In this document: one piece after another, positions 21,395 through 52,229 of the stretch
Layout of the letters: the number at the start of each line of letters is the position of its first letter
Position numbering within the stretch: position 1 is the stretch's first letter
From: Antedon mediterranea
Taxonomy: Eukaryota; Echinodermata; Crinoidea; Comatulida; Antedonidae
DNA: 64,000 nucleotides
Direction of reading: 5' to 3'
Assembly: GCF_964355755.1 (NCBI RefSeq)
Contig: NC_092671.1
Location: forward strand, 15,967,501 to 16,031,500
The notes under the pieces: model-generated
What the model was told of the DNA's origin: nothing
What the model saw: the letters and a program-made list of their open reading frames with translations, nothing else
Database searches by the model: none
Made by a program: the position numbers and the translations under genes

Positions 21395-22437
21395 ATGATT
21401 TTAGAAAAGGAAAGTAGCAATAAAAGAGAAAGAATTTGTAACAAATGGGTTAAAAAATATACTATAAAAATGTATTTCTTATTTTATTTCAAAAAGCATG
21501 AGTCTCCTCTCCTTAATTGCCTAAGTCACACAGCTGACTTAGGCAGAAACACAAAAAAAAAAACGATCTGAGCATGTGCAAATGTATATAAAAGCACTCA
21601 GATAATGTAGAGAGGGCAGTATAAAGATATAAGCAGTGAGTTAGGCAGACCATAAGTCAGCTCTCCTTAATTGCCTAAGTCACACAGCTGACTTAGGCAG
21701 AAACACAACAAATATAGTATATTGATATAAGCAGTGAGTTAGGCAGATCATAAGTCAGCTCTCCTTAATTGCCTAAGTCACACAGCTGAATTGGGCAGAA
21801 ACACAACATATATAGTATATTGATATAGGCAGTGAGTTAGGCAGAAAAAAAAATTATGACTTAGACACTTTTGTTCTGAGGCTGTCGATATCATCTATAT
21901 ACAAAAAATGCTACCTTTAAGTAACAAAATTTAATAGCATTAGCTCTTCAGATTAAAATTAATACTGATGATTTTAAAAAAGGAAAGTAGCAATAAAAGA
22001 GAAAGAATTTGTAACAAATGGGTTAAAAAATATACTATAAAAATGTATTTCTTATTTTATTTAAAAAATCATGAGTCTCCTCTCCTTAATTGCCTAAGTC
22101 ACACAACTGACTTAGGCAGAAACACACAAAAATGATCTGAGCATGTGCAAATGTATATAAAAGCACTCAGATAATGTACAGAGGGCAGTATAAAGATATA
22201 AGCAGTGAGTTAGGCAGATCATAAGTCAGCTCTCCTTAATTGCCTAAATCACACAGCTGACTTCGGCAGAAACACAAAAAATATAGTATATTGATAAAAG
22301 CAGTGAGTTAGGCAGAAAAAAAAATTATGACTTAGACACTTTTGTTATGAGGCTGTCGATATCATCTATATACAAAAAATGCTACCTTTAAGTAACAAAA
22401 TTTAATAGCATCAGCTCTTCAGATTTAAATTAACACT
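21395..22437. repeat. Start of a third super-repeat copy
   Basis: Two monomers (about 573 and 470 bp) match the first two monomers of both super-repeat copies. After 22438 the next monomer no longer matches the expected type, so the third copy is truncated here. Confidence 0.8.
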
Positions 22438-24795
22438 GATGATTTTAGAAAAGGAAAGTAGCAATAAAAGAGAAAGAATGTGTAACAAATGGGTTAAAAA
22501 TATACTATAAAAATGTATTTCTTATTTTATTTAAAAAATCATGAGTCTCCTCTCTTTAATTGCCTAAGTCACACAGCTGACTTAGGCAGAAACACAAAAA
22601 AATGACCTGAGCATGTGCAAATGTATATAAAAGCACTTAGATAATGTACAGAAGGCAGTATAAAGATATAAGCAGTGAGTTAGGCAGATCATAAGTCAGC
22701 TCTCCTTAATTGCCTAAGTCACACAGCTGACTTAGGCAGAAACACAAAAAATATAGTATATTGATAAAAGCAGTGAGTTAGGGAGAAAAAAAAAATTATG
22801 ACTTAGACACTTTTGTTATGAGGCTGTCGATATCATCTATATACAAAAAATGCTACCTTTAAGTAACAAAATTTAATAGCATTAGCTCTTCAGATTAAAA
22901 TTAACACTGATGATTTTAGAAAAGGAAAGTAGCAATAAAAGAGAAAGAATTTGTAACAAATGGGTTAAAAAATATGCTATAAAAATGTATTTCTTATTTT
23001 ATTTAAAAAATCATGAGTCTCCTCTCTTTAATTGCCTAAGTCACACAGCTGACTAAGGCAGAAACACAAAAAATATAGTATATTGATATAAGCAGTGAGT
23101 TAGGCAGATCATAAGTCAGCTCTCCTTAATTGCCTAAGTCACACAGCTGACTTGGGCAGAAACACAACATATATAGTATATTGATATAAGCAGTGAGTTA
23201 GTCAGAAAAAATAATTATGACTTAGACACTTTTGTTATGAGGCAGTCGATATCATCTATATACAAAAAATGCTACCTTTAAGTAACAAAATTTAATAGCA
23301 TTAGCTCTTCAGATTAAAATTAATACTGATGATTTTAAAAAAGGAAAGTAGCAATAAAAGAGAAAGAATTTGTAACAAATGGGTTAAAAAATATACTATA
23401 AAAATGTATTTCTTATTTTATTTAAAAAATCATGAGTCTCCTCTCCTTAATTGCCTAAATCACACAACTGACTTAGGCAAAAACACACAAAAATGATCTG
23501 AGCATGTGCAAATGTATATAAAAGCACTCAGATAATGTACAGAGGGCAGTATAAAGATATAAGCAGTGAGTTAGGCAGATCATAAGTCAGCTCTCCTTAA
23601 TTGCCTAAGTCACACAGCTGACTTAGGCAGAAACACAAAAAATATAGTATATTGATAAAAGCAGTGAGTTAGGCAGGAAAAAAAATTATGACTTAGACAC
23701 TTTTGTTATTAGGCTGTCGATATCATCTATATACAAAAAATGCTACCTTTAAGTAACAAAATTTAATAGCATCAGCTCTTCAGATTAAAATTAACACTGA
23801 TGATTTTAGAAAAGGAAAGTAGCAATAAAAGAGAAAGAATTTGTAACAAATGGGTTAAAAAATATACTATAAAAATGTATTTCTTATTTTATTTAAAAAA
23901 GCATGAGTCTCCTCTCCTTAATTGCCTAAGTCACACAGCTGACTTAGGCAGAAACACAAAAAAAAAACAATCTGAGCATGTGCAAATGTATATAAAAGCA
24001 CTCAGATAATGTAGAGAGGGCAGTATAAAGATATAAGCAGTGAGTTAGGCAGACCATAAGTCAGCTCTCCTTAATTGCCTAAGTCACACAGCTGACTTGG
24101 GCAGAAACACAACAAATATAGTATATTGATATAAGCAGTGAGTCAGGCAGAAAAAAAAAATTATGACTTAGACACTTTTGTTATGAGGCTCTCGATATCA
24201 TCTATATACAAAAAATGCTACCTTTAAGTAACAAAATTTAATAGCATTAGCTCTTCAGATTAAAATTAACACTGATGATTTTAGAAAAGGAAAGTAGCAA
24301 TAAAAGAGAAAGAATTTGTAACAAATGGGTTAAAAAATATACTATAAAAATGTATTTCTTATTTTATTTAAAAAATCATGAGTCTCCTCTCCTTAATTGC
24401 CTAAGTCACACAGCTGACTTAGGCAGAAAAACAAAACAAATATTATGACTTAGACACTTTTGTTATGAGGCTGTCGATATCATCTATATACAAAAACTGC
24501 TACCTTTAAGTAACAAAATTTAATAGCATTAGCTCTTCAGATTAAAACTAATACTGATGATTTTAGAAAACGAAAGTAGCAATAAAAGAGAAAGAATTTG
24601 TAACAAATGGGTTAAAAAATATACTATAAAAATGTATTTCTTATTTTATTTAAAAAATCATGAGTCTCCTCTCCTTAATTGCCTAAGTCACACAGCTGAC
24701 TTTGGCAGAAACACAAAAAAACCATCTGAGCATGTGCAAATGTATATAAAAGCACCCAGATAATGTACAGAGGGCAGTATAAAGATATAAGCAGT
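22438..24795. repeat. Divergent monomers at the array edge
   Basis: Monomer starts at 22438, 22910, 23329, 23800, 24275 and 24557 give irregular lengths (472, 419, 471, 475, 282). Private substitutions and deletions are more frequent than inside the array, as expected at a satellite edge that escapes homogenisation. The first monomers (5543-6430; 469 and 419 bp) are similarly irregular. Confidence 0.85.
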
Positions 24796-25193
24796 GAGTT
24801 AGGCAGATCATAAGTCAGCTCTACTTAATTGCCTAAGTCACACATCTGACTTAGGCAGAAACACAAAAAATATAGTATATTGATATAAGCAGTGAGTTAG
24901 GCAGATCATAAGTCAGCTCTCCTTAATTGCCTAAGTCACACAGCTGACTTAGGCAGAAACACAAAAAATATAGTATATTGATATAAGCAGTGAGTTAGGC
25001 AGATCATAAGTCAGCTCTCCTTAATTGCCTAAGTCACACAGCTGACTTAGGCAGAAACACAAAAAATATAGTATATTGATATAAGCAGTGAGTTAGGCAG
25101 ATCATAAGTCAGCTCTCCTTAATTGCCTAAGTCACACAGCTGACTTGGGCAGAAACACAAAAAATATAGTATATTGATATAAGCAGTGAGTGA
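24796..25193. repeat. Pure run of the 98-bp subunit
   Basis: The word GAGTTAGGCAGATC recurs at 24796, 24894, 24992 and 25090, and a last subunit breaks off at about 25188. Spacing is exactly 98 bp. This is the subunit whose gain or loss makes the 471- versus 569-bp monomers. Confidence 0.93.
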
Positions 25194-29643: not shown

Positions 29644-29989
29644 GAACCATTATTAATACATAAACCCGGCCACAGCCCTAATTGAAACTAATAATATTGG
29701 ATTAATAACCAGATCGACTGCTCGATGTATCAACAAACCAATAGGCCTATACGATGATTGTATCATGATAATTATGCGTTTTTGGCTATTATAACTTAAG
29801 CTATACGTACAAATGACAAATGAAAAGATAAGCACAACATCTGTGCTTATCTTGTCATTTCGTTTTTTTCTCTCTCTTAATTCGGATCCAACCTGTGTAT
29901 CATAATCATAGAACTTAGAAAATGTATTAAATTTATGGAAAAGACGTAACCTAAGTTTTTTTGGTAAAATTACTATTATAAAAACACTA

Positions 29990-31312
29990 GCAATATCAAG
30001 GTTTATCTATACTGCTAGTATTATTGAGGTGCCTAAGGAAATAATTACAAAAATAGAAAAACTGTTATATGACTTCCTTTGGAGTAATAAAAAAGAAAAA
30101 ATAAAACGAACAACATTAATTAGAAATGTGGAAGAAGGTGGTTTGAATATGCCAGATCTCACTTCGGTGATAGAATCGCTCAAACTAACCTGGGTAAGAG
30201 ACTCTTAAGCCCAGATCCAGGTAAATGGAAATGCATTCCAAAGTTTTACCTTCAACCTATTGAATATACAGTTAACATAACGCAGTTGAATTTAGAAGAG
30301 CATGCTAACCTGGGCAGTATGCCTTTATTTTATAGAAATATGATGAAGTCTGTTGTAAAATTAAACAATATCATACATGTAAAACCAAAAACTACCATGG
30401 AAATAAAGAGCCAACAATTATGGGAAAACAGACATATCGTATTGAACAATAAATCTATGTATTTTAAAGTATGGTTATCTTCTGGGTTTAAAACAATCGG
30501 TGATATTTACATGATTGATAGAGTACTTTCACCTTGTGAAATATTTTCTAAACTGTATAAACGGCATAACGCCTTAATTGAATATATGCAATTGTTAAAA
30601 GCCATACCAAAAGAGTGGAAAGAAATTATTGAAAAAGGTAATACAAAAAAGGAAGACAATAGTATTCCTAGTCTACGACTTTATATGAAAAATAAAGGAA
30701 CCGTCTTCTATAATCATTTTATTAATAGATGTTCAAAAATACCAAATTCACAAACAAAATGGGAAATAGAACTAGGTAAGGTAGACATTGATTGGAGTAA
30801 TGTTTGGTACTATAAAGTTTATAGACTAAAACATATACCCAAAGTTGCTCAATTTAATTTTAAACTTCTGCATAGAATACTACCATGTAAAAAACGATTG
30901 AAAATCTGGAACTTAGCAGGTAATGATTTATGTGATAAATGTATAAACAAGGTTGAAACTGAAAAACACATGTTATATAAATGCAGTGTAATTCAATGGA
31001 TATGGCTTAAATTTAAAAATGTCATAGCTAAGAGCTTTTCAAACGAAGACCCAATAACTTGGACTACAATGATTACTGGATCAAATAACATAATTGTAAA
31101 TGAATTGATTTCATTATTTGTATTCTCTATATATAAGTTGCATATATTAACAAAACCTGAAAAAAAAAGGAAACAACTATGAAAAAAAGATCTGGAATCT
31201 TTTTATTACTGAAGTAAAGCATTTAATTGAAAATGAGTATAAGTGCTACTACTTTAAAGCTCAATGTAAATGGGGAGATATAAAGCAAAATCTCCTTAAA
31301 TTAATGAAATAA
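29990..31312 (+). pseudogene. LINE ORF2 C-terminal part (L1/Tx1-type), 5'-truncated
   Basis: The translation starts with the region just after the RT domain (motifs like IEKLLYDFLWSNKK and EEGGLNMPDL at about 30050-30160). After a one-base frameshift near 30196 an open frame of 298 codons follows (30286-31182). It contains the zinc-binding C-terminal motif around CDKCINKVETEKHMLYKC (about 30930-30985). A further frameshift in the A-rich stretch near 31160-31180 separates the last 40 or so codons, which end at the TAA near 31312. The RT core is missing, as in a 5'-truncated insertion. Confidence 0.8.
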
Positions 31313-32178: not shown

Positions 32179-35100
32179 ATGGCTAAGACATTACAGTTAG
32201 TTATCACGGCCAGTCTGCTCTGTGCAGTAAGCATAGCACATCCATACGTAATTGGTAAGTACACACGTCATTACATTTTTATGTTTTTTCATAAAATACA
32301 TACGAATATCATACCTTTAGATTTCAAGACAATTATCAGTAGAGAAGAACAAGAGGTAATGTATATGCCTATGTTTTCAATTATCGGTAGGTCTAATGTT
32401 GTAGTAAAACATTACCGTATCACTGGAGAAGTGGGTGGGGGCGGGGGATGGCTACTATGAGCAAACCCAATTAGTTACTTCACGTTCGTCGAATTCAAAT
32501 GTAAGACGAATAGGTCAAGGGTAATTAAACCACGGTCATTTTATTATTTCCCCGTCTTAATCGTTTTGCTTAAGTCAATTAATAATGCTTAAGTGAAAAC
32601 TGAAGCTTTATTAATGTTACTAACAGTTTATTTTTATTTGGCTTTAAAAGAAACAAATATGTACACATTATTTTTGCTTACGTTATTTTAAAAAAAATGG
32701 GTTTTTTTAAACAAGTCTATGATGTATTTCCACTTAATCTTCAATGTGGGTTTGATACCTTAAAAGTGGGTGTTAGGAAGGAAACAGATACTTGTATCCA
32801 ATCGTAATAGAAAGGGAAGTACGCAATGCATTGGGTTTCGGCGATTGTATTGTCTCAACGATGTTTGAACATCCTTTCTGAATGCATAAATATTTATCTT
32901 TAAGAATCATTGGTTTTACAAGGTCTTAGAAATCAATAATACAAAATGGCAAAACCTGAAAAAACAAATTCTTTAAAATGTGAAGAAAAAAGCAAACTTT
33001 CACTTCGTCATTATTCTTTTTCTTTTTTCTGTTGATTGTTCAGCGGTTACAGGCGCCCTGAATTTTGCGCTATATTAAATTTAACTTTATTTTTATTAGT
33101 ATATGATTGTCTAAACTACATTCACCAACCCTATGACCGTATTCACCAATCACACTTAAGTGATATATCAACCTTAAATATTTTAAGTATTTCACTTAAC
33201 TCAATATTTAAGTTTTTCCCTTAGATTGTATTCACTTAGATTGTTTTAATTGTAAGGGTAAATGTTTCCCTTAGCTTAAGTGTGAATGGTGAATATACCG
33301 TCACTGGTCCTCAGAACCCACTAATTGTTTTGCTCAGGTGAGGAATCAACTACACCCAGACCATGTCCGGGGCTTGACTGTCCATTACTTGATTGTCTGC
33401 TGTACGGATACGCACGCGATGAATACGGTTGCCAGATATGCGAATGCGCTACGGGTAAGTGATGATAACAGACTGAATAAATGAAAATAGAATACATTAA
33501 GCTCGGTCTACACTATCAAACTAATTTGAAAAACAAGTTTGTGCCCAAATATGGTAGTGTGTGCCTAAATATGGTAGTGATAGTCTATATATGGGCACAT
33601 CACATTTGTTTGTCACATAAACTTTGACAGTGTAGATAGAGCTTTACAGAATGAATAATAGAATAGAAAAACAGAATTTTCATGACTGGTGTTGCTATCC
33701 AAATGACACCCCCCATAAAGTCAACTAATCTACATTCCTTTTTCTTAGAATATTTTAACATTCAATTGCAATATTTAAGAGTTGGGTTTAATTATTTTTT
33801 ATTTAACTATATTTTGTTAGGCCCAGGCGAGGAATCAACTACACCAAGGCCCTGTCCAGGTCTTACCTGTCCATTGCTGGATTGCCAGTACGGCTATGCA
33901 CGCGAAAACGGTTGCTACATATGCGAATGCACAGCGGGTAAGCCATATGATAACAGATGATAAATAACATAAATAAAACAACATTTACAGAATGAATGAA
34001 CAGTTTATGAATTATTAAGGAACGAATAAATGAATGAGCGTATATAGACGAAAGAATATGGAGATAAATATGAATGAATGAATAAACGAATGTATGAATG
34101 AATAATAATATTAATATATGAAATAAACGAATATAATCGGAACAAATACTGCTGAACATTGATGAATTTAATGAACGAATATAATGAACAATCTAACAGC
34201 AATAAATAAATAAATAAAAGAGCTATTGTATTATTTTTAGGTCCATGTCCTGATTTAGATTGCCTTTTTAATTGTCCATTTGGGTATTTAAGAGATGAAA
34301 ACGGATGTGAAACATGCAAATGCAGGCCGGGTAAGTTGAATTGCTGCCCTCAGCTTAAGTCGTATAACCATAGATATGAAAGCCTAAGCCTATATTATTC
34401 TATCTCTATTTGTTAGGTAAATCATGTATGATACCACCAAACTTTCGAGTTAAAATCAAGATTGTGAAGCATTTGATAAATAGGCAAACTGCCATAAAAC
34501 ACCGTGTTTCGAGAAACTATTCTCATCATCAGAACAGAAATCAACGCCAAGAGTACTTATATACCAATAAATACGTATACCATCATTTACTCGAATAAAC
34601 TCCGCCACTAATACACGCTCCCCCCACTCCCCCTCTGCACCCCCTGAATACTGTATTATAACACATTTTGTAGTAGAATTCATGACTTTCAAGATCTACA
34701 ATTTACTATGCATTTTGACACAATTTTTACTGTATTTTATTAGTGATATTAGGCCTTAGTTATGTTGTATTTTTTCATGGAGGGAGCAATTTGATGATAC
34801 ATAATCACGCCCAAAATAAACGCCTCCTTCGAATAAATTAACTCTCCCTAAAACCCCTCCAGAACAATAAATGATTAAATAAGGTACCTTAAACAGATAT
34901 TGCAATCATATTATATATTCGTACACTGTACAATTGTATTATATAGATGAAAGTTGCGACGCCTCCAAAATATGTAAGAACAACCCGTGTGCACCTGGAG
35001 TCGTCTGTCCATGGAAAATATCAACAGTGTGTGTGTAAGTTAAATACAATCTTATTCCTACAATTATAATTAAAAAATCATGTCGTTACAGTTTTAAACT

Positions 35101-38100
35101 AATGAGAAATAAGTCCATGAACTAATTAAGGAGGTGGTCGAGTAGTCGCGGATTAAAATCCTGACGACGTATAGGCCTATATTTATATTTGCACAGGGAA
35201 AAGTGAAATTACACTTTTCACTCTTCCCTGATTTACGGGAATCCAGAAGAATTTGACGCAAACGATTCTTTTAACATATCAATTGTTATGATTTGCTTAA
35301 AGCAAAGAAAAGTTAAATTACAACTGATTTCACTCTTCCTTGCATTCAAATAAACCCTAAACAAAACCCAAATTGAAAAAAAAAGATATTGAAATACAGA
35401 AAATTCAGAAAAAAATGAATGCCAATGTTTACGAATGGTATGACAATAAGTATGATACTAAAGCTTAAAATTATGAGGGAAAACAGAAAAAAAAAAAAAA
35501 AAAAAAGGTAGAACATGTTTAGAAATAATTATGTAGGGCCTAATGAAACATTGAATAAATAAAGGAGGTAGTAAAAGATTTTAAAATGTTTCGTTTCACC
35601 TTAATTAATACTACTACTGGTTTGATCTTATTTACTTAAAGGTTTGTATTGTTTATTATTACTTTATACAATTATTATTATTAGTTATTTTGTTAGCTTA
35701 TTTGGTCTTTTACAGGCTTTGCGTCTTTTATTTAATACTTAAGCTGTCATAACGTATCAAGTGATGCATTGTGAAATAAAAACGAATGAATGAATAGTTC
35801 TTAGAGTACGTTATACATCAATTCGTAAACGTAAACGAACAAAATACATCGGATGTGATTTAATTCAATTCTTAGAACAATCGCATATTTTCAAGATGGA
35901 TAAAACTTACACAAAAACATATGTTAATTGGTATAGGTCCGGCACTTATAATTATAAGTATTAAAGAACAAACTATTTGGAATTAACTATATAATATATT
36001 CGTCTTAATGAACGGATAGTTAAAATCCAGAGGAAGTGGAGTGGCGTACTTAGGAAGTCTTCAACTATTTAGCAACTAATCATAAGTGAATCGTAATACA
36101 AAAGATATGTTGAAGTAGGAAGTAGAATCTAATCCATTGTACGTATTAACAATATAGGCACGACTGAGTCAACTACTTTAGGTGAAGGAAAGTGGTTTAA
36201 CCGTACTCAGAGTTCCGTTATGATCGGCTCTGGTTGTTGAACTTCGGTTTTCAGTGGAAAACAGTAATATGAACATCTAAGGAAAATGAATACAATTGCA
36301 CATTGGGATCCACTAGAGACGAAACACAAGGACGTAACGCAACGTAAGTTGACCAATCACAAGCAATGAATTATTCGAACTGTCGCTTGTCATTGGTCAA
36401 CACGCTTGCGTTGCGTTTACGCTCTTGCGTTACGTCCTAGTGAGAACCAAGCTTAAGGTTCGAAATTCGATTGTGGATTAATAACATAGAAACACAATTC
36501 ACATTGTGGAGGAAGAGATGGGCGCGATTATAATATATATATATATAAGGTTGAATATGCGATAATATAGTTATTAGTACATTACATTATCTTTTCTATG
36601 ATATTATTTTTATTTATATTTTAGGCCAAGTAATTGTGATTGTAAACCACATTTTTATGATATTGGTGGAAGAGAAGTGGAATGCACAGGTATTTAAAAA
36701 ATATTGTGACACAATCATATCCATAATGAATATAATATTTATTGTTTAGTATCAAAACTTTACATACATAGAAAAAAATATGTAGCAAATGCATGTGTTG
36801 TGTTGTGCATATATTACAAAAGATACAACATTGAATGGATGACTTGCTGGTAGACCTAGACATAAATTATGCTTTATTTATTTAACAACTTCTATATACA
36901 GGATTACACAATCAGGCAAAAGAAAACCGGTTTCGCATCGGGGTCCTGTCTTGATACAAACAAATCAGGAAAAAAAAGTTTAGTTTTGTGAAAAAAATGA
37001 GATCGATATCTAGCTTTGAATGAAGCAATGTTTAATTTCAGTTGGTAGGTTATTCCATATTTTAGAGCCTGCAACTTTGAACGCCGAGTTCATTTTACTA
37101 ACTTACTTATAGTAGGGTACCGTATTGTTATATTTAGGCGTGCCATTTATATTCTTATTTTCTTAGCTGTGACATTGGATGCATGTGAGAGTGGTGATAA
37201 CTGTTTGAATGGAGGAGTTTGTGTAGAAGATCCAACAATCGCCCGTGGCTTTACATGTGACTGTCCAAAGTGTTACAAAGGTCGTCGATGTGGAAGAAGT
37301 AAGTTTATAATGACAATCATTGTATTCTAAAGCTCTGTCTACAGTATCAAACTAGTTTGACAAAAAAAGTTTGATGTGCCCAAATATGGTAGTGATATGC
37401 CAAATATGGTAGTGATATTACATTATCGTGTCCATATATGGGCACATCACATTTTGTTGTCACATAAAGTTTGATAGTGTAGACAGAGCTTAATGCGTCC
37501 TCACACAATAGTATTCATTGATTTGTCAAATGTTCTGTATACTTTATGGATGTTTTAAAACTCCGGATACCAATATTATCACTGTTTTTATCAATGCCTA
37601 AAAAAATATTGATATTCATAATTATTCATTATACAATTTAGTGTTTTACGTTACGTAATTAAGGGACAGTCGTCATATCTAAACTATTTTAACATCATTG
37701 CCTACAAATTATTAAAATTCATAATTATTCATAATAATAATTCAATTCAAAGTGTTTTGAAATTGAAATTGATTGAAATTGATTGATTGAAATATATATT
37801 TATACTGGGTAACCTCTTCAGTCAAAGACTGGTCTCCCAGAGGGCCCAGTTGGTGATCAGTGGCTGTGATGTACTAATAACCCCCTACTCGTCTCGAAAG
37901 ATGTACTAGGTTCTTTAAAGTGCACACGAGCAAGTTGTGTACACTGGACCTACGGTTTATAGTCCTTATCCGAGAAGACTCGTTCTACCACCAGAACCAT
38001 GGAGTGAGTGAGCCTCGAACCCCTGCCGATGTTATGGCTACGTGATTACGGTTCCACTGTCTTAACCGCTCGGCCACTCACCCACGTAACGAAGGGACAG

Positions 38101-41100
38101 CCGTCATATCTAAAATATTTTATTACTATGATACATATACCTTAATAATACTATTTTCCCCCAGAGAACTGTCCTTTCAACTACTGCAACAAAAAATGTC
38201 CCTTTGGTTATGCCACGGATGACTGTGGCTGTGACATTTGTGTGTGTCTACCAGGTAAGTAAGGCCTACATAGCTACATTAATGAATATTTCATATCATC
38301 AGGCTAACTACCTGCCTATAGGCCTAATGTTTTTCGCCACATGATGGGAAAAACTAAGTACCATCCAAGTATTATGGCTATATGCGGTACACACTGATAA
38401 TTAATTAATTGTGCAGTTATTAATCGAGGCTTCTATATCGAGCGTTATTTTTCTCCCTAATGAATGATAACTCGGTACAATTTGTAGTCGTAGTTATTCG
38501 TGATTATTATGTTTCCAGAGCCATGCGATCCTCCCGCTACATGTCTAATCGACCCATGTGATCCAGAGTTCTTTACATGCAATCTCAATCCAAATGCCGT
38601 TTGTGTGTAAGTATTATAGGCACTATACTTTAATTATATTTTTTTTTCATTTGAATTTTCTAAATTTAAAGTAAGTTTTTGTAATATTTTCAGTATATAT
38701 TGAATCATAATTACTTTGTAACACATGCAAAATTGATATCGGTGGTGTGAAAGTGAGATCAGGGCTAATAAGTGTTTTAGTTTTTAGGCCTTTTGCCATA
38801 TACCAAACTTGTTAGCACGCCAATAAAGTTATAAGCCATTCAATGTTGTATTACCATTCCATTTTAATTATCATTTGTAGCCCAAACAACTGCGATTGCA
38901 CTCAAGAGTTTTACACACATTCTGGTAAATTAGCAGTGTGTGGTAAGTTTATATTTCTCTTCAATGTAAAGTAGATTTTCGAAAATAATAAATACATGTC
39001 AGTATATAATACAATTACATACACATGTTCATATATCCATTCTTGTGTCACAAAAAACACACAAAATAAGATGCCATCTTTCGTACTTTGATATCTGCAG
39101 AGTGTCCGCCAGTCTGTGAAATAGCCTGTGAATTTGGAAATGTTCTTGATAAAAACGGTTGTCCAACGTGCGAATGCAAGCCCGCACCACGTAAGTTTAA
39201 ACCGTAAGGCCATATCCTATATGTACAATTAAGTATACAATGTTATTTTGAAACTTCAATATAAACCCACTTTAGTTTACTGTATTAATAGTGGGTCCCT
39301 TATTACTCAAAATTAGTTTCACAACAGTATGCACATTTTAATGTGCATAAGAGCTGTTAAAAAAGCTCTTATCTCTCCCAAACCTTCTGTTCATATTCCA
39401 TTAACGAAAGCTTCGTCAAACGTGATGCGACAAAAAATGTGATGTGCCCATTGATGTCATATCACTACCATATTTGAACATATCATTTCCATATTTGGGC
39501 ATATCACACTTTTTTGTCAAACTAGTTTGGTAGTGTAGACAGAGCTTTACAATAATATCCCATTATTAATATCTGTAGTTTATAGTTGAAAATAAACCTT
39601 TTTATGTTCAGCTTGTGAACTGGTTTCTTGTGGAAATAAAACGTGTCCATTCGGTTACGTGACAGACAGGAGAGGCTGTCCGACCTGTATCTGCTTACCA
39701 GGTATTGCAATTGATTGTATTTGTACGTTAATAAATATAATGTATTAAAATATTCCCAACCAAATCACACCATTAATACATATGGCCTATTGTTTCATAG
39801 TTTTGGTTTTATAAGTTAAAAGAATACAGGTCATCGATTAAATAACCTTAAAACAGATTTCTAACGATTTCACTGCCCGATTATTACTGTGAATCTGTTT
39901 ATAGATAAACCACTTTGATTATGCTTTTCAAACACAATATGTATAACAATAATAAAGACATAGGCCTAATAACTATCTGAAATCTACATCAATATACAGT
40001 TATATGTTATTGATTATAATATTGCTACTGTATAGAGCCTTGTGAAAACCCACCATTCTGTTTCATTGATCCTTGCGACAAACGTTTCTTCACCTGTGAA
40101 CTACAACCAGACGCAATTTGTGTGTAAGTTAAACCCTAAACAACCTTTTAAACTTGTCGAGTATTTAAAACAACATTATCAACTTTTTAACTTATAATTA
40201 GCCTCAATAAGACTGGTTTCAGGATTCTATTTGGGAAGGTGTGGGCCGGAACTATGGTTTGGGATACCTATGTGTAGGCCTACTCATTCTAATTATGGTT
40301 TAATGGTTTTAACCATTCAATTTAGACATTTATGTTCTCATAATATTGAACTTCGTTTTTAAAACCTACTTCTAGTTGTTTTTGTAAGGTTTAACGGTAC
40401 AAATATATCGATTTTCAGCGCTTCTTGTGTCTGTACTCAAGAATTTTATACACGAGATGGTGAGCTGGCGATCTGTGGTAAGTTTGACTATAATGAAGAA
40501 AGGTGATAAGATTGTAATAGTGATGACGAAAAGGATGAATATAATAAAGAGAGTGATACGATTGTAATAGTGATGACGAAAAGGATGACTATAATGAAGA
40601 GAGTGATAAGATTGTAATAGTGATGACGAAAAGGATGAATATAAAGAAGAGAGTGATAAGATTGTAATAGTGATGACGAAAAGGGTGACTATAATGAAGA
40701 GAGTGATAAGATTGTAATAGTGATGACGAAAAGGATGAATATAAAGAAGAGAGTGATAAGATTGTAATAGTGATGACGAAAAGGGTGACTATAATGAAGA
40801 GAATGATAAGATTGTAATATAGTGATGACGAAAAGGATGAATATAAAAAAGAGAGTGATAAGATTGTAATAGTGATGACAAAAACGATGACTATAATGAA
40901 GAGAGTAATAAGATTGTAATAGTGATGACGAAAACGATCAATATAAAGAAGAGAGTGATAAGATTGTAATAGTGATGACAAAAACGATGACTATAATGAA
41001 GAGAGTGATAAGATTGTAATAGTGATGACGAAAAGGATGAATATAAAGAAGAGAGTGATAAGATTGTAATAGTGATGACGAAAAGGATGAATATAAAGAA

Positions 41101-44100
41101 GAGAGTGATAAGATTGTAATAGTGATGACGAAAAGGGTGACTATAATGAAGAGAGTGATAAGATTGTAATAGTGATGACGAAAAGGATGACTATAATGAA
41201 GAGAGTGACAAGATTGTAATAGTGATGACGAAAAGGATGAATATAAAGAAGAGAGTGATAAGATTGTAATAGTGATGACAAAAAGGGTGACTATAATGAA
41301 GAGAGTGATAAGATTGTAATAGTGATGACAAAAACGATGACTATAATGAAGATAGTGATAAGATTGTAATAGTGATGACGAAAAGGATGAATATAAAGAA
41401 GAGTGTGATAAGATTGTAATAGTGATGACGAAAAGGATGAATATAAAGAAGAGAGTGACAAGATTGTAATAGTGATGACGAAAAGGATGACTATAATGAA
41501 GAGAGTGATAAGATTGTAATAGTGATGACGTAAAGGATGGATATAAAGAAGAGAGTGACAAGATTGTAATAGTGAGGACGAAAAGGATGAATATAAAGAA
41601 GAGAGTGATAAGATTGTAATAGTGATGACGAAAAGGATGACTATAATGAAGAGAGTGATAAGATTGTAATAGTGATGACAAAAACGATGACTATAATGAA
41701 GATAGTGATAAGATTGTAATAGTGATGACGAAAAGGATGAATATAAAGAAGAGTGTGATAAGATTGTAATAGTGATGACGAAAAGGATGAATATAAAGAA
41801 GAGAGTGATAAGATTGTAAAAGTGATGACGAAAAGGATGGATATAAAGAAGAGAGTGATAAGATTGTAATAGTGATGACGACAAGGATGACTATAATGAA
41901 GAGAGTGATAAGATTGTAATAGTGATGACGACAAGGATGACTATAATGAAGATAGTGATAAGATTGTAATAGTGATGACGTAAAGGATGAATATAAAGAA
42001 GAGAGTGACAAGATTGTAATAGTGATGACAAAAACGATGACTATAATGAATAGAGTGATAAGATTGTAATAGTGATGACGTAAAGGATGAATATAAAAAA
42101 GAGAGTGACAAGATTGTAATAGTGATGACGACAAGGATGACTATAATGAAGAGAGTGATAAGATTGTAATAGTGATGACGTAAAGGATGAATATAAAGAA
42201 GAGAGTGACAAGATTGTAAAAGTGATGACGAAAAGGATGACTATAATAAAGAGAGTGACAAGATTGTAATAGTGATGACGAAAAGGATGAATATAATGAA
42301 AAGAGTGATAAGATTGTAATAGTGATGACAAAAAGGATGACTATAATGAAGAGGGTGATAAGACTCAACTTGTGAAAATGCAACTTCCTTTATTTTTTAT
42401 TTTGAAAAATAAAACACTTTTTGCAACTGATTCCAATAATCCCGGAATAGATGGATGATAAAATATTGTTATGATTTTACTGATTATAACACCCTGTCTG
42501 TGTCAATGTAATAATGATGCCTTTATGGATGGAAATGTTTCGACAGTTCATGAGCTTTCTTTACATGATCTATTCTCTATCGAAGTTAAATAGCGGACTA
42601 TCAGAGTTCCATTTCGGTTCAGTTGGTTCTTAAACCTATCGAAGATAGTTACACACCTCTGAAACCCATCGGAGTATCAGAGGCGAATCGGATATCAGAG
42701 GCGAATCGGAGTTACATCGAGGTTAACGAAACCAAGTTACCGGTAACGAGTTAACTCAAGTGCGTGTAAACACTATGGATGTGTGCAGTTTGACCACATG
42801 CATTTCGAAACAGCTGAAGTGATGACGAAAAGGATGACTATAATAAAAACAGTGATAATATTTTAATAGTGATGACGAAAAGGATGAATATAATAAAGAG
42901 AGTGATAAGATTGTAATAGTGATGACAAAAAGGATGACTATAATGAAGAGAGTGATAAGATTGTAATAGTGATGACGAAAAGGATGACTATAATGAAGAG
43001 AGTGACAAGATTGTAATAGTGATGACAAAAAGGATGACTATAATGAAGAGGGTGATAAGATTGTAATAGTGATGACGAAAAGGATGACTATAATAAAGAG
43101 GGTGATAAGATTGTAATAGTGATGACGAAAAGGATGACTATAATGAAGAGGGTGATAAGATTGTAATAGTGATGACGAAAAGGATGACTATAATGAAGAG
43201 GGTGATAAGATTGTAATAGTGATGACGAAAAGGATGACTATAATGAAGAGGGTGATAAGATTGTAATAGTGATGACGAAAAGGATGACTATAATGAAGAG
43301 AGTGACAAGATTGTAATAGTGATGACAAAAAGGATGACTATAATGAAGAGAGTGACAAGATTGTAATAGTGATGACAAAAACGATGGCCATAATGAAGAG
43401 AGTGATAAGATTGTAATAGTGATGACGAAAAAGATGAATATAAAGAAGAGAGTGATAAGATTGTAATAGTGATGACGAAAACGAGGAATATAAAGAAGAT
43501 AGTGATACGATTGTAATAGTGATGACGAAAACGAGGAATATAAAGAAGATAGTGATAAGATTGTAATAGTGATGACGAAAAGGATGAATATAATAAAAAC
43601 AGTGATAATATTTTAATAGTGATACATTGGTTGTATTTCTCTTTTAGAACCGACCACGTGTCCACCAGTTTGTGATATATACTGTGAGTTTGGAAATGTT
43701 CTCGACGAAAATGGTTGCCCCACCTGCGTATGCGAACCAAGTTAGTATAAATGATGATAATTATAAAAATAATACCAATAAATTATGAAAAGTGTTAATG
43801 TGTAATTAGGATAGCAGTGGTATGATATGGAACTTTAATATTTCAGAACCGACGTGTCCTCCTTTATGCGAGAAATTCTGTTTGTATGGAAATGTTCTCG
43901 ATGAAAACGGTTGTCCAATATGCACATGCAAACCAAGTGAGTTTACACGACCATACTAATTACCATAATCTATGATATTATACTTACTTCAAAGAATAAT
44001 TGATGATAATGGTGCCGTGCTTTTCCATTCTTAGAGCCATGTCCTCCCGTTTGTGCAATATTCTGTGAGTTTGGAAACGTTCCCGATGAAAACGGTTGTC

Positions 44101-47100
44101 CCACATGTTTATGCAGACCAGGTGAGCAGGCCTAAGCTAATTTTAATTAAAAACACATTACACGGTCCACAGACTCCTACTTGTGAAAATGCAACTTCCT
44201 TTATTTTTTATTTTGAAAAATAAAACACTTTTTGCAACTGATTCCAATAATCCCGGAATAGATGGATGATAAAATATTGTTATGGTTTTACTGATTATAA
44301 CACCCTGTCTGTGTCAATGTAATAATGATGCCTTTATGGATGGAAATGTTTCGACAGTTCATGAGCTTTCTTTACATGATCTATTCTCTATCGAAGTTAA
44401 ATAGCGGACTATCAGAGTTCCATTTCGGTTCAGTTGGTTCTTAAACCTATCGAAGATAGTTACACACCTCTGAAACCCATCGGAGTATCAGAGGCGAATC
44501 GGATATCAGAGGCGAATCGGAGTTACATCGAGGTTAACGAAACCAAGTTACCGGTAACGAGTTAACTCAAGTGCGTGTAAACACTATGGATGTGTGCAGT
44601 TTAACCACATGCATTTCGAAACAGCTGAAGGTCAGGTCTTCGGTGGTGTGAACCTGTGAATCTTCCAAGCCAAAAGAGCCGAAAAAGAGATATCACCCAG
44701 ATAAATCTTCACCCATGAATCCTGCGGCTACAAGCGCCTCACTCTTGTTTATTCTGTAACTTTATTATCTATAAACCTGTATTTACACGCACTAGAATTA
44801 ACTCTGTTCTATTGTATACATGCTTAGGCTACTGCTCATCATATCCGAGTTACATCCGAGGTAAGTGGCCGTGCGATCAGTTAACTCTCTTACCTCCTCG
44901 TCGTTAACCGCGATATAACTCCGATGTAGCAGCTCTGTTTTGGGGTTAAAAATTACTTCTATATTCCCACCTCCACCTGTTTCGTTTACGTAAAATTAAA
45001 ATAAGATTGTTGGGCGTTTAGGCATACACTATCATAGGTTTGTTATAATTAACTTTCGCTCATTCATGCTATATAAGTACATTTATTTGTTTGGAGAAAA
45101 CATCATCCACTGTTCGACATTTGTATAGTTGTGCTAATATCAAAATAACACACCAGGAAATTTTCACAAAATAATTTGCTTTATGTGCAAGATATGTTTT
45201 ATATATTAAACAGCTCCTCTGATTGGTAGACCCTGTGCACCAGGAACACCCGGATGTGAAAATGGTGGTACGTGCGTACCAAACCCAGACGACAGTGGAT
45301 TTACGTGTGAATGTCCTAAATTATACTACGGAGAAATTTGTGAAAATGGTTTGTTTCTTCTTAAATATATAATTTAAAACAATTACAAATAAAGTTTAAA
45401 ACAAGATTGTGCAGACTGATTCCAATAATATACTAATAATGTGTTAATAATGTTCTTATTTCTATTCTAACAGCCTGCCCGTCTTTGTGCAAAAAATTGT
45501 GCCCTTATGGAAACGTTCTAGACGAAAACAACTGCCCAATTTGCGAGTGTAAACCAAGTAGGTTCAGTTATTATTTATACAATATAAAGTAAGGGTTGCG
45601 GTACACTAAGTTTCCAAAATGAAATACACGTCTCCACGTTTCAATTACAATCGTTCTTATGAATTAAAGAAGACGATTGCTACACAACCCAATCTCAAAG
45701 GCATTCACAACGTTTTAACTTGTTAATGTCCAATCGTTATGCAAACCTTTAGACAATCTTAATACAATAGTATAAACTAAAAAAACATTGATGTGACCAA
45801 CTGTCTTACCGGCAATATACTATAGTATATCTTAATATCAGGTATGGATATATTATGATCCATGTGTTAATCATTAATAAAACTGAAATTTTACCGGTGG
45901 AGAGAAAACAAAACAACGTTACAATATTTCAATAAAATGCTATAATCTCTATAAATTATAGTCAATTTTTCGTAACATAAAAAGTACTGTATATGACAAG
46001 ATACATGTTTTGTTTCCTTAGATCCCGCTTGTCCAATCCTTACATGTTTCAAATGTCCATACGGATTTGTGGAAGACAACAATGGCTGCATGACGTGCAT
46101 TTGTAAACCAAATCCAATTCCAGGTAATATACAATATAGTATTTACTAACATTATTTTCACTATTCAACAAAGGGCCAAACCACAAAAAACAACCCGTAA
46201 TATAACTAGATTTGATACTCGTCAACAACTGTAATACTTTTGTCGTTTTGTCCTGTACACATTATATTTTAGGAACAAATGTTTATTTTCATAAATGCGC
46301 AAAAAGTGACGCAGTAACAGACAACATATACAATTGGGCATCTCAATGACTATGATTAATTATGAATTGTTTTTTTTTTCTTAGACCCTGTTATTTGTCC
46401 CCTGTACAAATGTCTCCCATGTTCATTTGGTTATGAGTTGGATTCAGACGGCTGTCAGACATGCAAGTGCAAAACAGATCCAGGTAAGATAAGAATTAAT
46501 TACCTAGGCGTATTCAATTTGTTTTCTTTTGAAATTATTTCATCCATATCAAAAAAAATCTAATAGAAAGAAAAGGAAAAAACAAATTTGCATCATTTAG
46601 AAAACTCTAAAGCTGAAATATATAGAATACTTCTTCGTCTACAATATATCACATTGCAAACACAGATGCCAAGAATATTCAAAATACGTTGCATAAAACT
46701 ATCAATAGATTTTCGCATATTCTCATTAAAAGAAGGGATGCCATGTTCAATAAACATACAGGCACTACTGCTTCTTGAGATATTCAGTATACAGCGCAGA
46801 ACATTATTGTAGCATACATTAAGTGATCTAATAGTCTTATTAATATAGTCACACCAAATGGCAGCACAATACAGATTATTACAATATGATCTAAAGGGGC
46901 AACATTTAACATTAGTAGAGCATTTCATAAATTTGCGATTGAGTGAGTTGCTTCTAATACACAAAGACCCGTACTATACCTTCAAATATCGGCCTCATCC
47001 CTGCATATATTATATACAAACACTATGTTACCCTTTTGTGCTAAATCAACTATATACTACTTTATATAAACAGGCCCTGTGATTGGTAGACCCTGTGCTC

Positions 47101-50100
47101 CAGGAACACCCGGATGTGAAAATGGCGGGACATGCGTACCAAACCCAGACGACAGTGGATTTACGTGTGAATGTCCTAAATTATACTACGGAGAAATTTG
47201 CGAAAATGGTTTGTAGTTTGTATGTTTTAAATGAATTTATAACAAAAGTTCGTTCGATAATCTAAATATAGAAAGAAAAAAAAATATGATGAAAATGGAG
47301 TTGTGAGTTGATGACAAAGATGGTTGTTGAGAATGATGATAATACGTTGATGCGTCGATGTCGACGTCACTGTTGGTACGGATGATGAGTTGAGATTGAG
47401 AATGATGACGCTGATGATAATAATAATAATATAGTTGATATAGGAATGATAATGATGATGAAGATAACAATGATATAGTTGATAAAGAATGATAATGATG
47501 CTGTTGAGCATGATGACGATCTTTTTGGTGTTAAAATAAATATTACTTTTGTTTTTATTCTGATTATATACAGCCTGTCCGCCTTTGTGCAAGAAATTGT
47601 GCCCTTATGGAAACGTTCTAGACGAAAACAACTGTCCAATTTGCGAGTGTAAACCAAGTAGGTTCAGTTATTATACAAAATAGTAGATTTTATGTATAGT
47701 ATTAATTTAATAGTATGGGTCCGGCTTACAGCATGGAGGGAATATATATATATATATTGCACTGATGAAGGGCTAGTGTTGCCCGAAAGCTCTGCTAACT
47801 TTTCTGGCTGTTTTACTTCTCGTTTTGATTTAGCTTTTTGCTTTTATTTTGTATCTCCATTGAGATCCAGCCACTGATACCCACAGCATTGTCATTTTGT
47901 CAGTAATTTGCCTTTGGATTTATATATATATATATATATATATATTCCATGCTTACAGTAATATACGTAAAAACAAGTAAAGTACATCATCAGAAACACA
48001 GGTAATATACACATGAGAGTAAAAATAAATAATAACCCATTAATAGACTTTAATCTTCATATCAAGATAATGCATTCATACGTAAACATATAGACACACA
48101 TAGTAAGACTGTAAATAAACACATTGATGTGACCCTAGCCTGTGGAACATACTTATCGGTATGAATATGGTCCACGTCCTTATCACTAATCGAACTGAAA
48201 CTGAACCGGCAGAGAACACAAACATTGCAATAATATACTGTTTAAAAATCTCTATAAATTATGCAATTATATAACAAGTAGTACAAGACATGATACATGT
48301 TCTGTTTCCTTAGATCCCGCTTGTTCAATCCACACATGTTTCAAATGTCCATATGGATTTGTGGAAGACAACAATGGCTGCATGACGTGCATTTGTAAAC
48401 CAAATCCAAGTAAGTCCAGTACATTGACAACGTATCATCCACTAATTAACAAATAAAAAGGGTTACACAATGAAACCATAGAATAGGTTTACTATTAACT
48501 GGTCCTCTAGTAAACCCAGAACTATAATAATAATTGCTTAATAATGTTATATAGACAAGATAAAGGGGAAAGTACGATCACAAATCATATATAGTAAACT
48601 CAGAATCGTCTTCGTCGTCGTCAAAGCAAACTATGATAACAGCGTGGCTTCTCTAACAGTATTCTGAAACCTTCTCCTGTCTTCTGCCATCCTACTTGCT
48701 TGCTCCATAGAGCCAAACACATCTGCTATAATCTTCTTCCATCTTGGTCTTCCTCTTTTTCTCTTCCCTGGAATGTAAGCCTCCAAATTCTCTTCTCCAT
48801 TCCATCTTGTCGTTTAATGTGACCAAAGTAGCACAATTTCTGCTTTCTAACATAGTAAATGCGCAATATGGAATATGTTGTGTAAGAACAACACCACGTT
48901 CTTTAATGACTACCATTAATAAATGATTCATCTAGGAATTTTTTCCCCTCAGACCCTGTTATTTGTCCCGTGTGTGAGTACCAATGTCCATTTGGACATG
49001 AGTTAGATTCAGACGGTTGTAAGACTTGTCGATGCAAACCAAACCCAGGTAAGATTCACCAAAACTAATATACACGTAACCAAATCCGATACAAATCAAA
49101 CGGGTGTCACAAAAACTAACACTACGGTTACAATATGTGATAGGAGCCAAAAAATAGCTTTCGGTAATCGAAGTTTGACTCCTGTAATCTATCCTTATAA
49201 CTTCCAACCCGTGAAATTGGCTCAAATGGCAATCGATACAAAACGTTCCTGCGAATTTGGTTATCCGCAGCTGCTTAATCTATATCTAAGGAGTATATTA
49301 TTATTAAGCTACATTTTACACTTGTTCCATTTCACGGAACGGAAGACGGGATCGTTAAATTCTTGATAAATTTCCCATTATTTAATAAACGACGCCGCCT
49401 TGTGTGAATGCAGCTTTATTCAGTGAATATAAATTTTATTTTATAATACAGATCGTTGTCCTGGATCCAATGTTCCTACAGCTGATTGTAAGAATCCCTG
49501 CAAAGGGACGCGATGTCTCCTCGATGATTCTGCCATATGTGTGTAAGTAAAACTATAAAACTCGATGATGACGACAAAATGACCGCGAGAAAACACTGAC
49601 AAATAAAACTGTTGGCATTAAGAAATTACGATAGATAAGCAATTTATTATGTACAAATATTATCTTTCAGGCCTAACTTTTGCGGTGGATGTCACTACGA
49701 GTATTACGATGACAGCGCTAATTTAGTAGATTGTAAAGCTGGTATGTTTTTTTATTTGTTTTTACAGATAACACCTCAATGGACACCTAAATTAAGGGGA
49801 CACTAAGCAAGAGTCCCCTTAATATAGGGTTCATTTGCATTACCTCGAGTTATTGCAGAAAATGAATGGTGCGAGAATTAATACAACATCTAAACAATTA
49901 TAATAATTCTTTATTTTTTTTAAAGGTCATCCCTGCTACGATGGGTCACATAAGTGTTCCAGTGAATCAACATGTCGACCAAAAAACCCAGACCCATCTG
50001 ACCCACATTACACATGCGAATGTCCACCACAACTCACTGGAAAATATTGCAATGAAGGTACGTGCGGATGATGATTTCAATTTAATAGTAGGCCAACAAT

Positions 50101-52229
50101 ATATACATTAAAGTATTATCAGATTGTGCAACATTAGCCCGAGAAACTTCTATAACAGATAATTATAGTTAACTATAACATCATTAGTAAAATAACATGT
50201 TTGTGCCATGTTAGGCCTCAATTAATTTTGAATCCCGCGGTTTGTTCGAGTTTGGATAATAGGAGCAAAGCTGGCATTGGCATAACTAACATAACATAAG
50301 ATTGTTAGATCATAATAGCGCACATGCAATATAGGCTAGGCCTTTATATATATTTTTATAAGTTTTACAGTTTTTTAATGGGAATATAAATACAATAATA
50401 ACATAGTACTTTTATATGGAATTGATGTGTGTTTGAATAAATCTTTTTTATAAATCGTAATTGTATCTATGTATGATGTAACTGTGAACGTTTTGTTTGT
50501 TTTACCATATTTCTGTCTAGAAAAACAATTTTTCTAAGTACACATTTTTATATGGAAAAAAAAAAGATCTGATTTGATTTGATTGCCTAAAGCATGAACA
50601 GTTATTAATACACATGCATTTCAGAGACAATTTATACATTTTAATCCACCAGATGTTGAACTTGAAGACAGTACCTGTGAAGGCGATACGGAACTTAGCA
50701 CGTGTGCAAGTGCTTGTGGTATAACTACCTGCGAGGAAATACGACAAGGAGATATCACTTTTTGTACACAGCAGTGTGTCCTGGGATGTGTTTGCCCAAA
50801 TGGTGGCGTACTGGACAAGAATAATAGGTGTGTGGCTCAAGAAGAATGCGGCTGCATTTACAATGATGTTTACTACTCGGTAAGATATATCTCGAACGCT
50901 ATTTTAGGCCTAATGGTTTATGGTTTATTTACAAAATATGATAATAGGGACTTTACGAAACACGGCGGTTAGGGGAGGACGACGAATATATCCTGTGTTT
51001 GCTAGAGCGTAAAATATATTATATATACATTATTTCTAGTCGTATGGCAACTTTATCATCCTCAAAAAGTTAAGACGACGGAATTTCACGCTAAGCTCCA
51101 CCCACTTTGTTAAAGCTCTCACCGTCCTGTGGCTTCCCGTCGTGTTTCGTAAGTCCCTAATTTGACTTGATGTCATATCAGGGAAGAGTTAAATTATATT
51201 TTAATTGCAATTTAACTATTCCTTGTCATATGGAGGTACTATTCGTATACGTTGAATTTGTCAAGTCGTCCGACCCAATTCTAGGTTCTGGTAAAACATG
51301 CGCATTTGAACCTTTTTTTTGGCGTACTGTCGTCACGAATAAAACGAAATTATTTTGACAGAACTTCGCGGTTTTGACAAATGACGTATTGTACAATTTA
51401 TAAGTCTTGGTGTTCTATACGTCGTCGCAAATGGAAAGTATATTATTAGACATTCTGAACGAACGCTTACACACAAAATAAACATGAGTGAAGAAAATTA
51501 AATTTAAATAAAAGACTGTAACTTAAAATAACAAGATATATATATATATATTCTGGTTACTGAAAGCTGAGAGTTGTTAAACTTGCTGAAAATGGTTTCT
51601 TTTACAAATCAAACTAAATTGGGGGTCTGTTGAGCCGTGAAATGTGCAAAAAGTCATATTTTTGCAAACAACCATATTTGAGCAAACATTTGGTTCTTAA
51701 ATGTACAAACAACATTTGTGCAAACATGGCACCATCAAATGTGCAAATGTGTAAAAATGCATAATCTACCAATTGCACAAACATCACGCTGGTAATTGCA
51801 AAAACGATCAGTTTTGGCGTTAAATGTGCATAAGAAATTTTCAAAAAGTTTATTTAAAATTAAAATGATAACCTAATTCTAAATACTGCAAATGCTTAGT
51901 TATATGTAAGCCATGATGGATATGGTATTATTATCATATGATACTAAATACACAGAGAACCTATTTTTAGAATGTACAAATCAATAAAAAGATAAAGTAT
52001 AATAGGCCTAATCACTTTGAAGTTTGAAGTTGCAAAAATAGAAACGCCCGTGATTGGTTAATCTTTTAGGCTATTTATAGAAATATCTATATATAAAATG
52101 AAATGTTATCTTTTGCAGGTAAACGAATCGTACGAGGATCAAAGGCGTATCTGTGTGTGTCGTCAAAATACCCAATACGGTTCGACAACATCTATGACGT
52201 GTCAAAGAAAAAGATCAGGAAAAATATAA
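32179..52229 (+). CDS. Secreted multi-domain antistasin/EGF/TIL protein, 30 exons
   Basis: Joined by GT-AG splicing with continuous phase, 30 exons give 2985 nt, about 994 residues plus stop. Order: signal peptide; three antistasin-type domains; cysteine-rich module; EGF; antistasin; module; two antistasin; module; three antistasin; EGF plus three antistasin; the same cassette again; module; EGF; ten-cysteine TIL domain; short VWC-like tail ending ...RKRSGKI. Antistasin and TIL domains are known serine-protease inhibitor folds, so a multi-headed inhibitor or extracellular matrix/adhesive protein is likely. No transmembrane segment is seen. I do not recognise a named orthologue. Exon borders are by eye; single borders could be wrong, but the phase agreement through 29 introns supports one gene. 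Confidence 0.85.
33136..33301. mobile_element. MITE, family 3 (intron 1)
   Basis: Terminal inverted repeats ACCGTATTCACCAATCACAC and the near reverse complement at 33276-33301 bound an AT-rich element of about 166 bp without coding capacity. It ends only about 37 bp before exon 2. Confidence 0.65.
33498..33648. mobile_element. MITE, family 2, copy 1
   Basis: Ends AAGCTCGGTCTACACTATC and its near inverse (TGTAGATAGAGCTTTA). Core has repeats of AAATATGGTAGTG and TATATGGGCACATCACA. Sits in intron 2. Confidence 0.7.
34575..34890. repeat. Dispersed AT-rich repeat, second copy (intron 4)
   Basis: CGAATAAACTCCGCC, a C-rich run, and AATAAACGCCTCCTTCG with related inner words match the layout of 27905-28260. 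Confidence 0.4.
35570..35800 (+). mobile_element. Possible LINE 3' end with GAAT tail
   Basis: A TTATTATTA-rich stretch ends in GTGAAATAAAAACGAATGAA followed by GAATGAATAG, the form of a retroposon 3' end with a short tandem tail. No coding part is visible. Confidence 0.3.
36303..36456. mobile_element. MITE, family 1, copy 1
   Basis: Inverted ends GGGATCCACTAG and CTAGTGAGAACCAAGCTT with the palindromic core shared by the family (GGACGTAACGCAACG, TTGACCAATCACAAGC and inverses). Sits in intron 5. Confidence 0.7.
37329..37493. mobile_element. MITE, family 2, copy 2
   Basis: Ends AAAGCTCTGTCTACAGTATC and TAGTGTAGACAGAGCTTAA. Same core words as copy 1. Sits in intron 7. Confidence 0.75.
37755..38094 (-). 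mobile_element. tRNA-derived SINE (intron 7)
   Basis: On the minus strand the element starts with a tRNA-like head: box A TGGCCGAGCGGTTAAGA and box B GGTTCGAGGCT, correctly spaced for a Leu/Ser-type tRNA. A body follows with words like TTAAAGAACCTAGTACATC and GAGTAGGGGG that resemble conserved central domains of metazoan SINEs. It ends in a tail of TCAATTTCAAT-type repeats at about 37755-37800. Confidence 0.75.
39407..39549. mobile_element. MITE, family 2, copy 3 (inverted core)
   Basis: The right end GTAGTGTAGACAGAGCTTTA is intact, while the left end is degraded. Core words appear in the opposite orientation (CACTACCATATTTG). Sits in intron 11. Confidence 0.65.
40485..42362. repeat. 50-bp minisatellite, block 1 (intron 14)
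   Basis: About 37 copies of a 50-bp unit that includes GATAAGATTGTAATAGTG, GATGACGAAAAGGATGA and either CTATAATGAAGAGAG or ATATAAAGAAGAGAG. It begins only about 8 bp after the exon 14 donor site. Minus-strand open frames of up to 247 codons arise from the repeat itself. Confidence 0.95.
42367..42820. repeat. 455-bp duplicated segment, copy 1 (inside the minisatellite)
   Basis: From ACTTGTGAAAATGCAACTTC to GAAACAGCTGAAG it is nearly identical to 44178-44630, with at least two substitutions (for example TATGATTTTAC versus TATGGTTTTAC). It contains a short direct repeat ATCAGAGGCGAATCGGA. Weakly similar ends suggest but do not prove a transposon. Confidence 0.85.
42821..43622. repeat. 50-bp minisatellite, block 2
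   Basis: About 16 more copies of the same unit resume after an unrelated 455-bp segment and end about 25 bp before exon 15. Confidence 0.93.
44178..44630. repeat. 455-bp duplicated segment, copy 2 (intron 17)
   Basis: Near-identical to copy 1. Downstream sequence to about 44940 carries related words (GAGTTACATCCGAGG, CAGTTAACTC, ATAACTCCGATGTAGC), so the full element may be longer here. Confidence 0.8.
45214..46483 (+). repeat. Four-exon cassette, copy A
   Basis: Exons 18-21 (EGF plus three antistasin domains). The EGF exon differs from its copy (exon 22) at about 8 of 135 positions and exon 19 from exon 23 at about 4 of 84. Flanking intron sequence is also related (for example after exons 19/23 and before exons 20/24). 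Confidence 0.85.
46593..46964 (-). pseudogene. LINE RT C-terminal fragment (CR1/L2-like), intron 21
   Basis: An open frame of 123 codons on the minus strand has the pattern [51 protein letters not shown], which is the form of the region after RT in CR1/L2-type LINEs. It is a scrap in an intron. Confidence 0.6.
47074..49048 (+). repeat. Four-exon cassette, copy B
   Basis: Exons 22-25, tandem duplicate of copy A. It is longer because a decayed LINE piece and other repeats lie in its introns. Confidence 0.85.
48600..48880 (-). pseudogene. Decayed LINE C-terminus (intron 24)
   Basis: Across frameshifts, the minus strand reads [13 protein letters not shown], then [17 protein letters not shown] and [20 protein letters not shown], the typical post-RT end of RTE/CR1-type elements. 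It ends in a run of GACGACGACG. Confidence 0.65.

Follow-up and report, generated by a model that had tools for sequence, protein, structure and literature searches.

What does a secreted protein with 15 antistasin modules do—i.e. is it a battery of protease inhibitors, or a chain in which most of these modules serve as building blocks—and does a single gene encode it? Both questions are raised by positions 32179-52229 (+) of the window, by which we mean the whole 64,000-nucleotide stretch of DNA analysed here. Prediction from the genomic sequence alone yields a single model of 30 exons, with a coding sequence of 2985 nt including the stop codon, 994 amino acids, and no stop before the last codon. 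The encoded protein comprises a signal peptide, 15 antistasin (AS) modules, 4 EGF modules, 4 two-exon modules designated N, and a C-terminal TIL. Reassembling the model returns the 30 exons, 994 residues, and end points given in an earlier note on this DNA, whose description of a secreted modular protein agrees with the signal-peptide exon and the Pfam modules lying in one reading frame.

Gene model and its unity

The exons, and the repeats in one large intron, are as follows.

32179..32254 (+) exon 1: start codon plus signal peptide (25 protein letters); sole first exon of signal-peptide type here
33338..33454 (+) exon 2: AS1, P1 Pro, 4-residue loop (Pfam and loop alignment)
33821..33937 (+) exon 3: AS2, P1 Pro, 4-residue loop
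34241..34330 (+) exon 4: AS3, canonical loop, P1 Leu
34947..35034 (+) exon 5: N module 1, first half
36625..36689 (+) exon 6: N module 1, second half
37167..37298 (+) exon 7: EGF1
38165..38254 (+) exon 8: AS4, canonical loop, P1 Asn
38519..38606 (+) exon 9: N module 2, first half
38881..38942 (+) exon 10: N module 2, second half
39101..39190 (+) exon 11: AS5, P1 Glu
39612..39701 (+) exon 12: AS6, P1 Gly, 4-residue loop; weak donor GTATTG
40036..40123 (+) exon 13: N module 3, first half
40419..40477 (+) exon 14: N module 3, second half
40485..43623 (no strand) 50-bp minisatellite and transposon-like copy, within the N3-AS7 intron (40478-43647, ~3.2 kb)
43648..43740 (+) exon 15: AS7, P1 Asp
43847..43936 (+) exon 16: AS8, P1 Glu
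44035..44121 (+) exon 17: AS9, P1 Ala
45214..45348 (+) exon 18: EGF2, opens the duplicated 4-module block; donor GTTTGT
45474..45557 (+) exon 19: AS10, P1 Lys
46022..46123 (+) exon 20: AS11, P1 Phe, 2-residue loop
46385..46483 (+) exon 21: AS12, P1 Leu, 2-residue loop
47074..47208 (+) exon 22: EGF3, copy of EGF2
47574..47657 (+) exon 23: AS13, copy of AS10, P1 Lys
48314..48409 (+) exon 24: AS14, copy of AS11, P1 Phe
48953..49048 (+) exon 25: AS15, copy of AS12 with diverged loop, P1 Glu
49452..49542 (+) exon 26: N module 4, first half
49671..49741 (+) exon 27: N module 4, second half, CGGC motif retained
49926..50057 (+) exon 28: EGF4
50653..50879 (+) exon 29: TIL module, VWF/mucin type
52119..52229 (+) exon 30: E/TILa-like tail, ending in the stop codon

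A regular expression for antistasin-like cysteine spacing matches 14 times in the window, always within the gene region and on the plus strand, while 30 first-order Markov resamplings of the window yield no match at all, so the pattern is not a product of chance. When acceptors and donors are picked by consensus score only, with phase disregarded, the AS and EGF exons show phase 1 at 19/19 acceptors (binomial P = 9e-10) and 18/19 donors (P = 3e-8); as such, the splice structure is not imposed by site selection. Each AS or EGF module corresponds to one 1-1 exon, and each N module to two exons, 1-2 then 2-1. The last exon has a good acceptor upstream, and an AATAAA signal lies ~60 bases past the stop, near 52288.

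Between 32.0 and 52.3 kb, just one candidate first exon on the plus strand both resembles a signal peptide and ends in a phase-1 donor, and the minus-strand control over the same interval holds none. That this first exon is the sole one on the plus strand favours one gene. The 50-bp repeat and transposon-like copy filling the intron at 40478-43647, together with the fact that phase-1 modules can be freely joined, leave some room for two genes wrongly joined, with their boundary at this 3.2-kb intron between N3 and AS7. We consider such a split very improbable, however, given that a second signal-peptide first exon is not found in the region, that AS5 and AS7 share 82% DNA identity across the gap, and that a strong in-phase donor ends nearly every AS and N exon.

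The minisatellite has a 50-bp unit present in >50 copies and two blocks, and its open minus-strand frames of up to 250 codons are repeat artefacts. Segments 42341-42754 and 44147-44692 form a near-identical transposon-like pair, one in each of neighbouring introns. Elsewhere in the window, the minus strand at 1-1781 carries the 5' part of a 28S rRNA, cut by the window edge, and a complete 5.8S rRNA; a zinc-knuckle gag-like frame occupies the place expected for the 18S (~2.8 kb), so the rDNA unit looks interrupted. A large tandem array spans 5700-24800, with minus-strand frame copies spaced 1040, 1610, 1610, 2179, and 1043 bp and a higher-order unit of ~7482 bp, and a degraded LINE with reverse-transcriptase C-terminal-like frames (29912-31182) lies just upstream of the gene. 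Searches for marker genes find the core of bindin, an echinoderm sperm protein, in the genome (E = 2.3e-28), which supports an echinoderm source. They find no cellulose synthase match in the genome, where a tunicate would be expected to have one, and no COX1 match in the assembly.

Antistasin modules and their reactive loops

The Pfam profile PF02822 recovers 15 antistasin stretches above its cut-off (whole-protein E = 3.8e-76), the number counted in the earlier note. Six Cys and a Gly are invariant among them, and an Asp is kept in at least 90%. Each module is a 6-Cys core (7 Cys in AS4) carried by one exon of 28-40 residues. Solved leech inhibitors, e.g. hirustasin, have 10 Cys in two subdomains; the 4-Cys subdomain that would precede an AS module, and with it the full 10-Cys leech-type domain, is absent from the gene model.

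To place P1, we aligned the leech inhibitors bdellastasin, antistasin, guamerin, and hirustasin to a profile built from the 15 modules. Their known P1 residues (Lys34 in bdellastasin, Arg34 in antistasin, Met36 in guamerin) fall on the position that directly follows the second Cys. From AS1 to AS15, the P1 residues read P, P, L, N, E, G, D, E, A, K, F, L, K, F, E, while the loop to the third Cys measures 3 residues in 9/15 modules, 4 in 3/15, and 2 in 3/15. Taking P1 in the set KRLMFYA as a yardstick, a choice made in this analysis, only AS3 (Leu), AS9 (Ala), AS10 (Lys), and AS13 (Lys) combine it with the standard 3-residue loop—i.e. 4/15, compared with 46/48, 20/32, and 8/10 in the arrays on contigs C3, C9, and C11 of this genome (together 74/90; Fisher P = 3.6e-5). 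Judging from the loop residues, then, ~4 of the 15 heads look able to block proteases. The proposal of a "multi-headed inhibitor" is only partly supported, with these four loops looking inhibitory and the remaining 11/15 lacking a standard loop with a usual P1. Modules with P1 Glu, Asp, Asn, or Gly could nevertheless act on proteases of another specificity.

P1 also ranks second in variability among the positions of the 15 AS modules (entropy 3.06 bits), the pattern that diversification of reactive sites for inhibition would give. The block EGF2-AS10-AS11-AS12 has been duplicated as EGF3-AS13-AS14-AS15, with exons 79-94% identical (BLAST) and introns 54-62%. Over 132 codons of the duplicated modules, dS is 0.248 and dN 0.048, and the resulting dN/dS of ~0.19 indicates that purifying selection holds the modules and that the gene is constrained; gene conversion between the block copies may shift the dates, the ratio not much.

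Could most of the 15 heads nonetheless act on different proteases, with the variety at P1 being adaptive? Such a true multi-headed inhibitor is a possible reading, and a rather unlikely one. Variability peaks at P1 and the adjoining positions both in the window gene and in its C11 paralogs, AS12 and AS15 have diverged mainly in the loop since the block duplication (CPLYKCLPC to CPVCEYQC), and strongly inhibitory-looking AS arrays exist elsewhere in the genome, with P1 Met/Leu in C3 and Phe/Tyr in C9. Set against this, 6/15 loops have the wrong length and the four named above are the only ones to unite standard length with a usual P1, the modules are 6-Cys units of 28-40 residues where leech inhibitors have 10 Cys, and the TIL, as described below, is of the VWF type.

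The other modules and related loci in the genome

The Pfam scan gives 4 EGF domains (E = 3.9e-11), as counted in the earlier note, and no match above the cut-off for the 4 modules that the note calls novel. These N modules follow the pattern C...C..[ND]PC....C...P.A.C..NYCGGCNA.FYD..G..V.C and have no credible match among Pfam, NCBIfam, and PDB profiles, EB and TIL_2 being weak and below the cut-off. Searching the whole genome for NYCGGCNA with a degenerate DNA pattern yields nine N exons, and the reversed control yields none. The four modules had been taken as novel to this protein; N recurs elsewhere in the genome, including a cluster at C2:7.16-7.20 Mb. As a recurrent and unnamed module, with no match in the searched Pfam copy, it could be described as a domain.

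The C-terminal piece matches TIL (PF01826, E = 3.1e-10, 40.5 bits against a cut-off of 24.5) and has the ten-Cys profile. Compared with solved structures, the TIL-E exon pair scores 8.9e-15 for VWF, 3e-11 for mucins, and 0.012 for an inhibitor-type TIL (insect 1ccv); it is not nearer to inhibitor TIL than to VWF TIL, as the standalone inhibitor type would be. The label "TIL head" is misleading, since the TIL sits C-terminally and runs on into an E/TILa-like tail in the last exon, and VWF far outscores TIL inhibitors. The TIL-E segments of VWF and mucins are parts of assemblies, not inhibitors. A study of limpet pedal mucus mentions that TIL and C8 are disulfide-linked to VWD (PMC7333891).

EGF and cysteine-rich modules are common in matricellular and signalling proteins, and CRIM1 combines antistasin-like repeats, thought to be spacers, with VWC repeats. 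A protein of this kind, in which EGF and N would bind receptors or growth factors and AS would be spacers as in CRIM1, is nevertheless an improbable reading: the Pfam scan of the protein finds no VWC, IGFBP, or transmembrane part (nor VWD or C8), and the most closely related family in the genome is arranged as a tandem cluster, an arrangement not shared by conserved single-copy signalling genes.

Searching the genome (354 Mb, 18 contigs) reveals that antistasin exons form several clusters. For example, ~40 near-uniform canonical AS domains, with P1 mostly Met or Leu, occupy ~10 kb at C3:2156208-2166014, and the C3 cluster has ~46 AS domains with a canonical loop. This count runs counter to the earlier statement that antistasin proteins carry few repeats. 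Such an array would be in keeping with a very large inhibitor of elastase or chymotrypsin type. The pairing of AS with TIL, also thought odd, occurs at five or more sites of contig C2 apart from the window; two loci with this pairing lie at 39.586 and 39.604 Mb.

The C2:7.164-7.196 Mb cluster, for which no published name was found, is the most similar in organisation. There, AS, N, EGF, and TIL exons alternate in three apparent genes. Like the window gene, the cluster has all four module types, AS alternating with N, and TIL near the C-terminus, and its N modules have an intron at the same codon and phase (phase 2) as the window N. By contrast, it has 1-3 AS per apparent gene and more EGF or N, and its N modules keep NYCGGCNAVFYD-like motifs that the window N1-N3 have lost. 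With AS, N split by a phase-2 intron, and a C-terminal TIL, the window gene has the features of this AS-N-EGF-TIL family, and the related clusters indicate that it is the AS-rich member of an existing set.

The closest AS sequences (CPPLC...), up to 81% identical over single modules, are at C11:2.040-2.049 Mb, where P1 is mostly Leu or Lys; unlike the window gene, this cluster is AS-only, with N, EGF, and TIL not found within ~10 kb. N modules at C6:17.68 and C10:3.69 Mb have no internal intron; the former (C6:17680001-17688000) form a tandem run just downstream of an antistasin cluster, and the latter (C10:3690001-3696000) occur with EGF. About thirty TIL exons lie in tandem at C3:38097898-38151248, with ~1.7-kb spacing.

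The antistasin core is thus used in two ways in this genome—i.e. in homogeneous arrays with inhibitor-like loops (C3, C9) and in a loop-degenerate mixed chain that is joined to EGF and VWF-type modules. These two uses make possible a clear test of whether antistasin repeats in marine secretions act as protease inhibitors or as building blocks.

Proposed function and comparison with known systems

The reading that we favour, to which we give about an even chance, is a secreted structural or mucus/adhesive-type chain of small knots, in which AS modules are mainly spacers and a few heads are inhibitory. The signal peptide would direct the protein to the secretory pathway, and it would work outside cells. 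A disulfide-rich chain of small knots would probably be stiff and protease-resistant, the EGF modules and the VWF/mucin-type TIL-E tail may serve protein-protein contacts or assembly, and the AS modules would mostly be structural spacers. AS3, AS9, AS10, and AS13 may dock into serine proteases, protecting the secretion. Such a chain would resemble echinoderm and mollusc secretions in which antistasin occurs with WAP or EGF. A more speculative version, to which we assign only a small chance, would have diversified protease-docking loops, rare acidic P1 among them, shield a secretion against many proteases simultaneously while the TIL-E tail tethers the protein to a mucus or adhesive network.

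Related secreted echinoderm proteins are footprint proteins of the sea star Asterias rubens, namely Sfp8, which has repeated WAP and antistasin domains and whose gene is expressed in adhesive cells, and Sfp3, which has EGF repeats and WAP/antistasin-type domains (PMC9382459). Like these, the window protein is a large secreted echinoderm protein with antistasin-type domains. However, Sfp8 and Sfp3 have FAMeT and WAP domains, neither of which is found in the window protein, and its N module and C-terminal TIL-E have no counterpart described for them. Among molluscs, WAP is combined with antistasin in limpet shell proteins (PMC3374290) and pedal-mucus proteins (PMC7333891).

The literature searched on antistasin with TIL or with echinoderm terms holds no protein of this architecture, in line with the earlier note, which knew of no named one. 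We file the window protein as a variant of modular antistasin-repeat proteins, its architecture being unnamed in the papers searched. It has in common with antistasin, hirustasin, bdellastasin, and guamerin the six-Cys core and the position of the reactive loop; the leech proteins differ in having one or two 10-Cys domains with P1 Arg, Lys, or Met, compared with 15 six-Cys modules of mixed loop length. Its C-terminal tail matches the TIL plus E-like segment of VWF and gel-forming mucins (most closely VWF, at the E-value given above), although these have VWD and C8 with their TIL and neither is found beside the window TIL. The missing 10-Cys and VWD/C8 features weaken its membership in the leech-inhibitor and VWF families, and leave the resemblance in parts unaffected.
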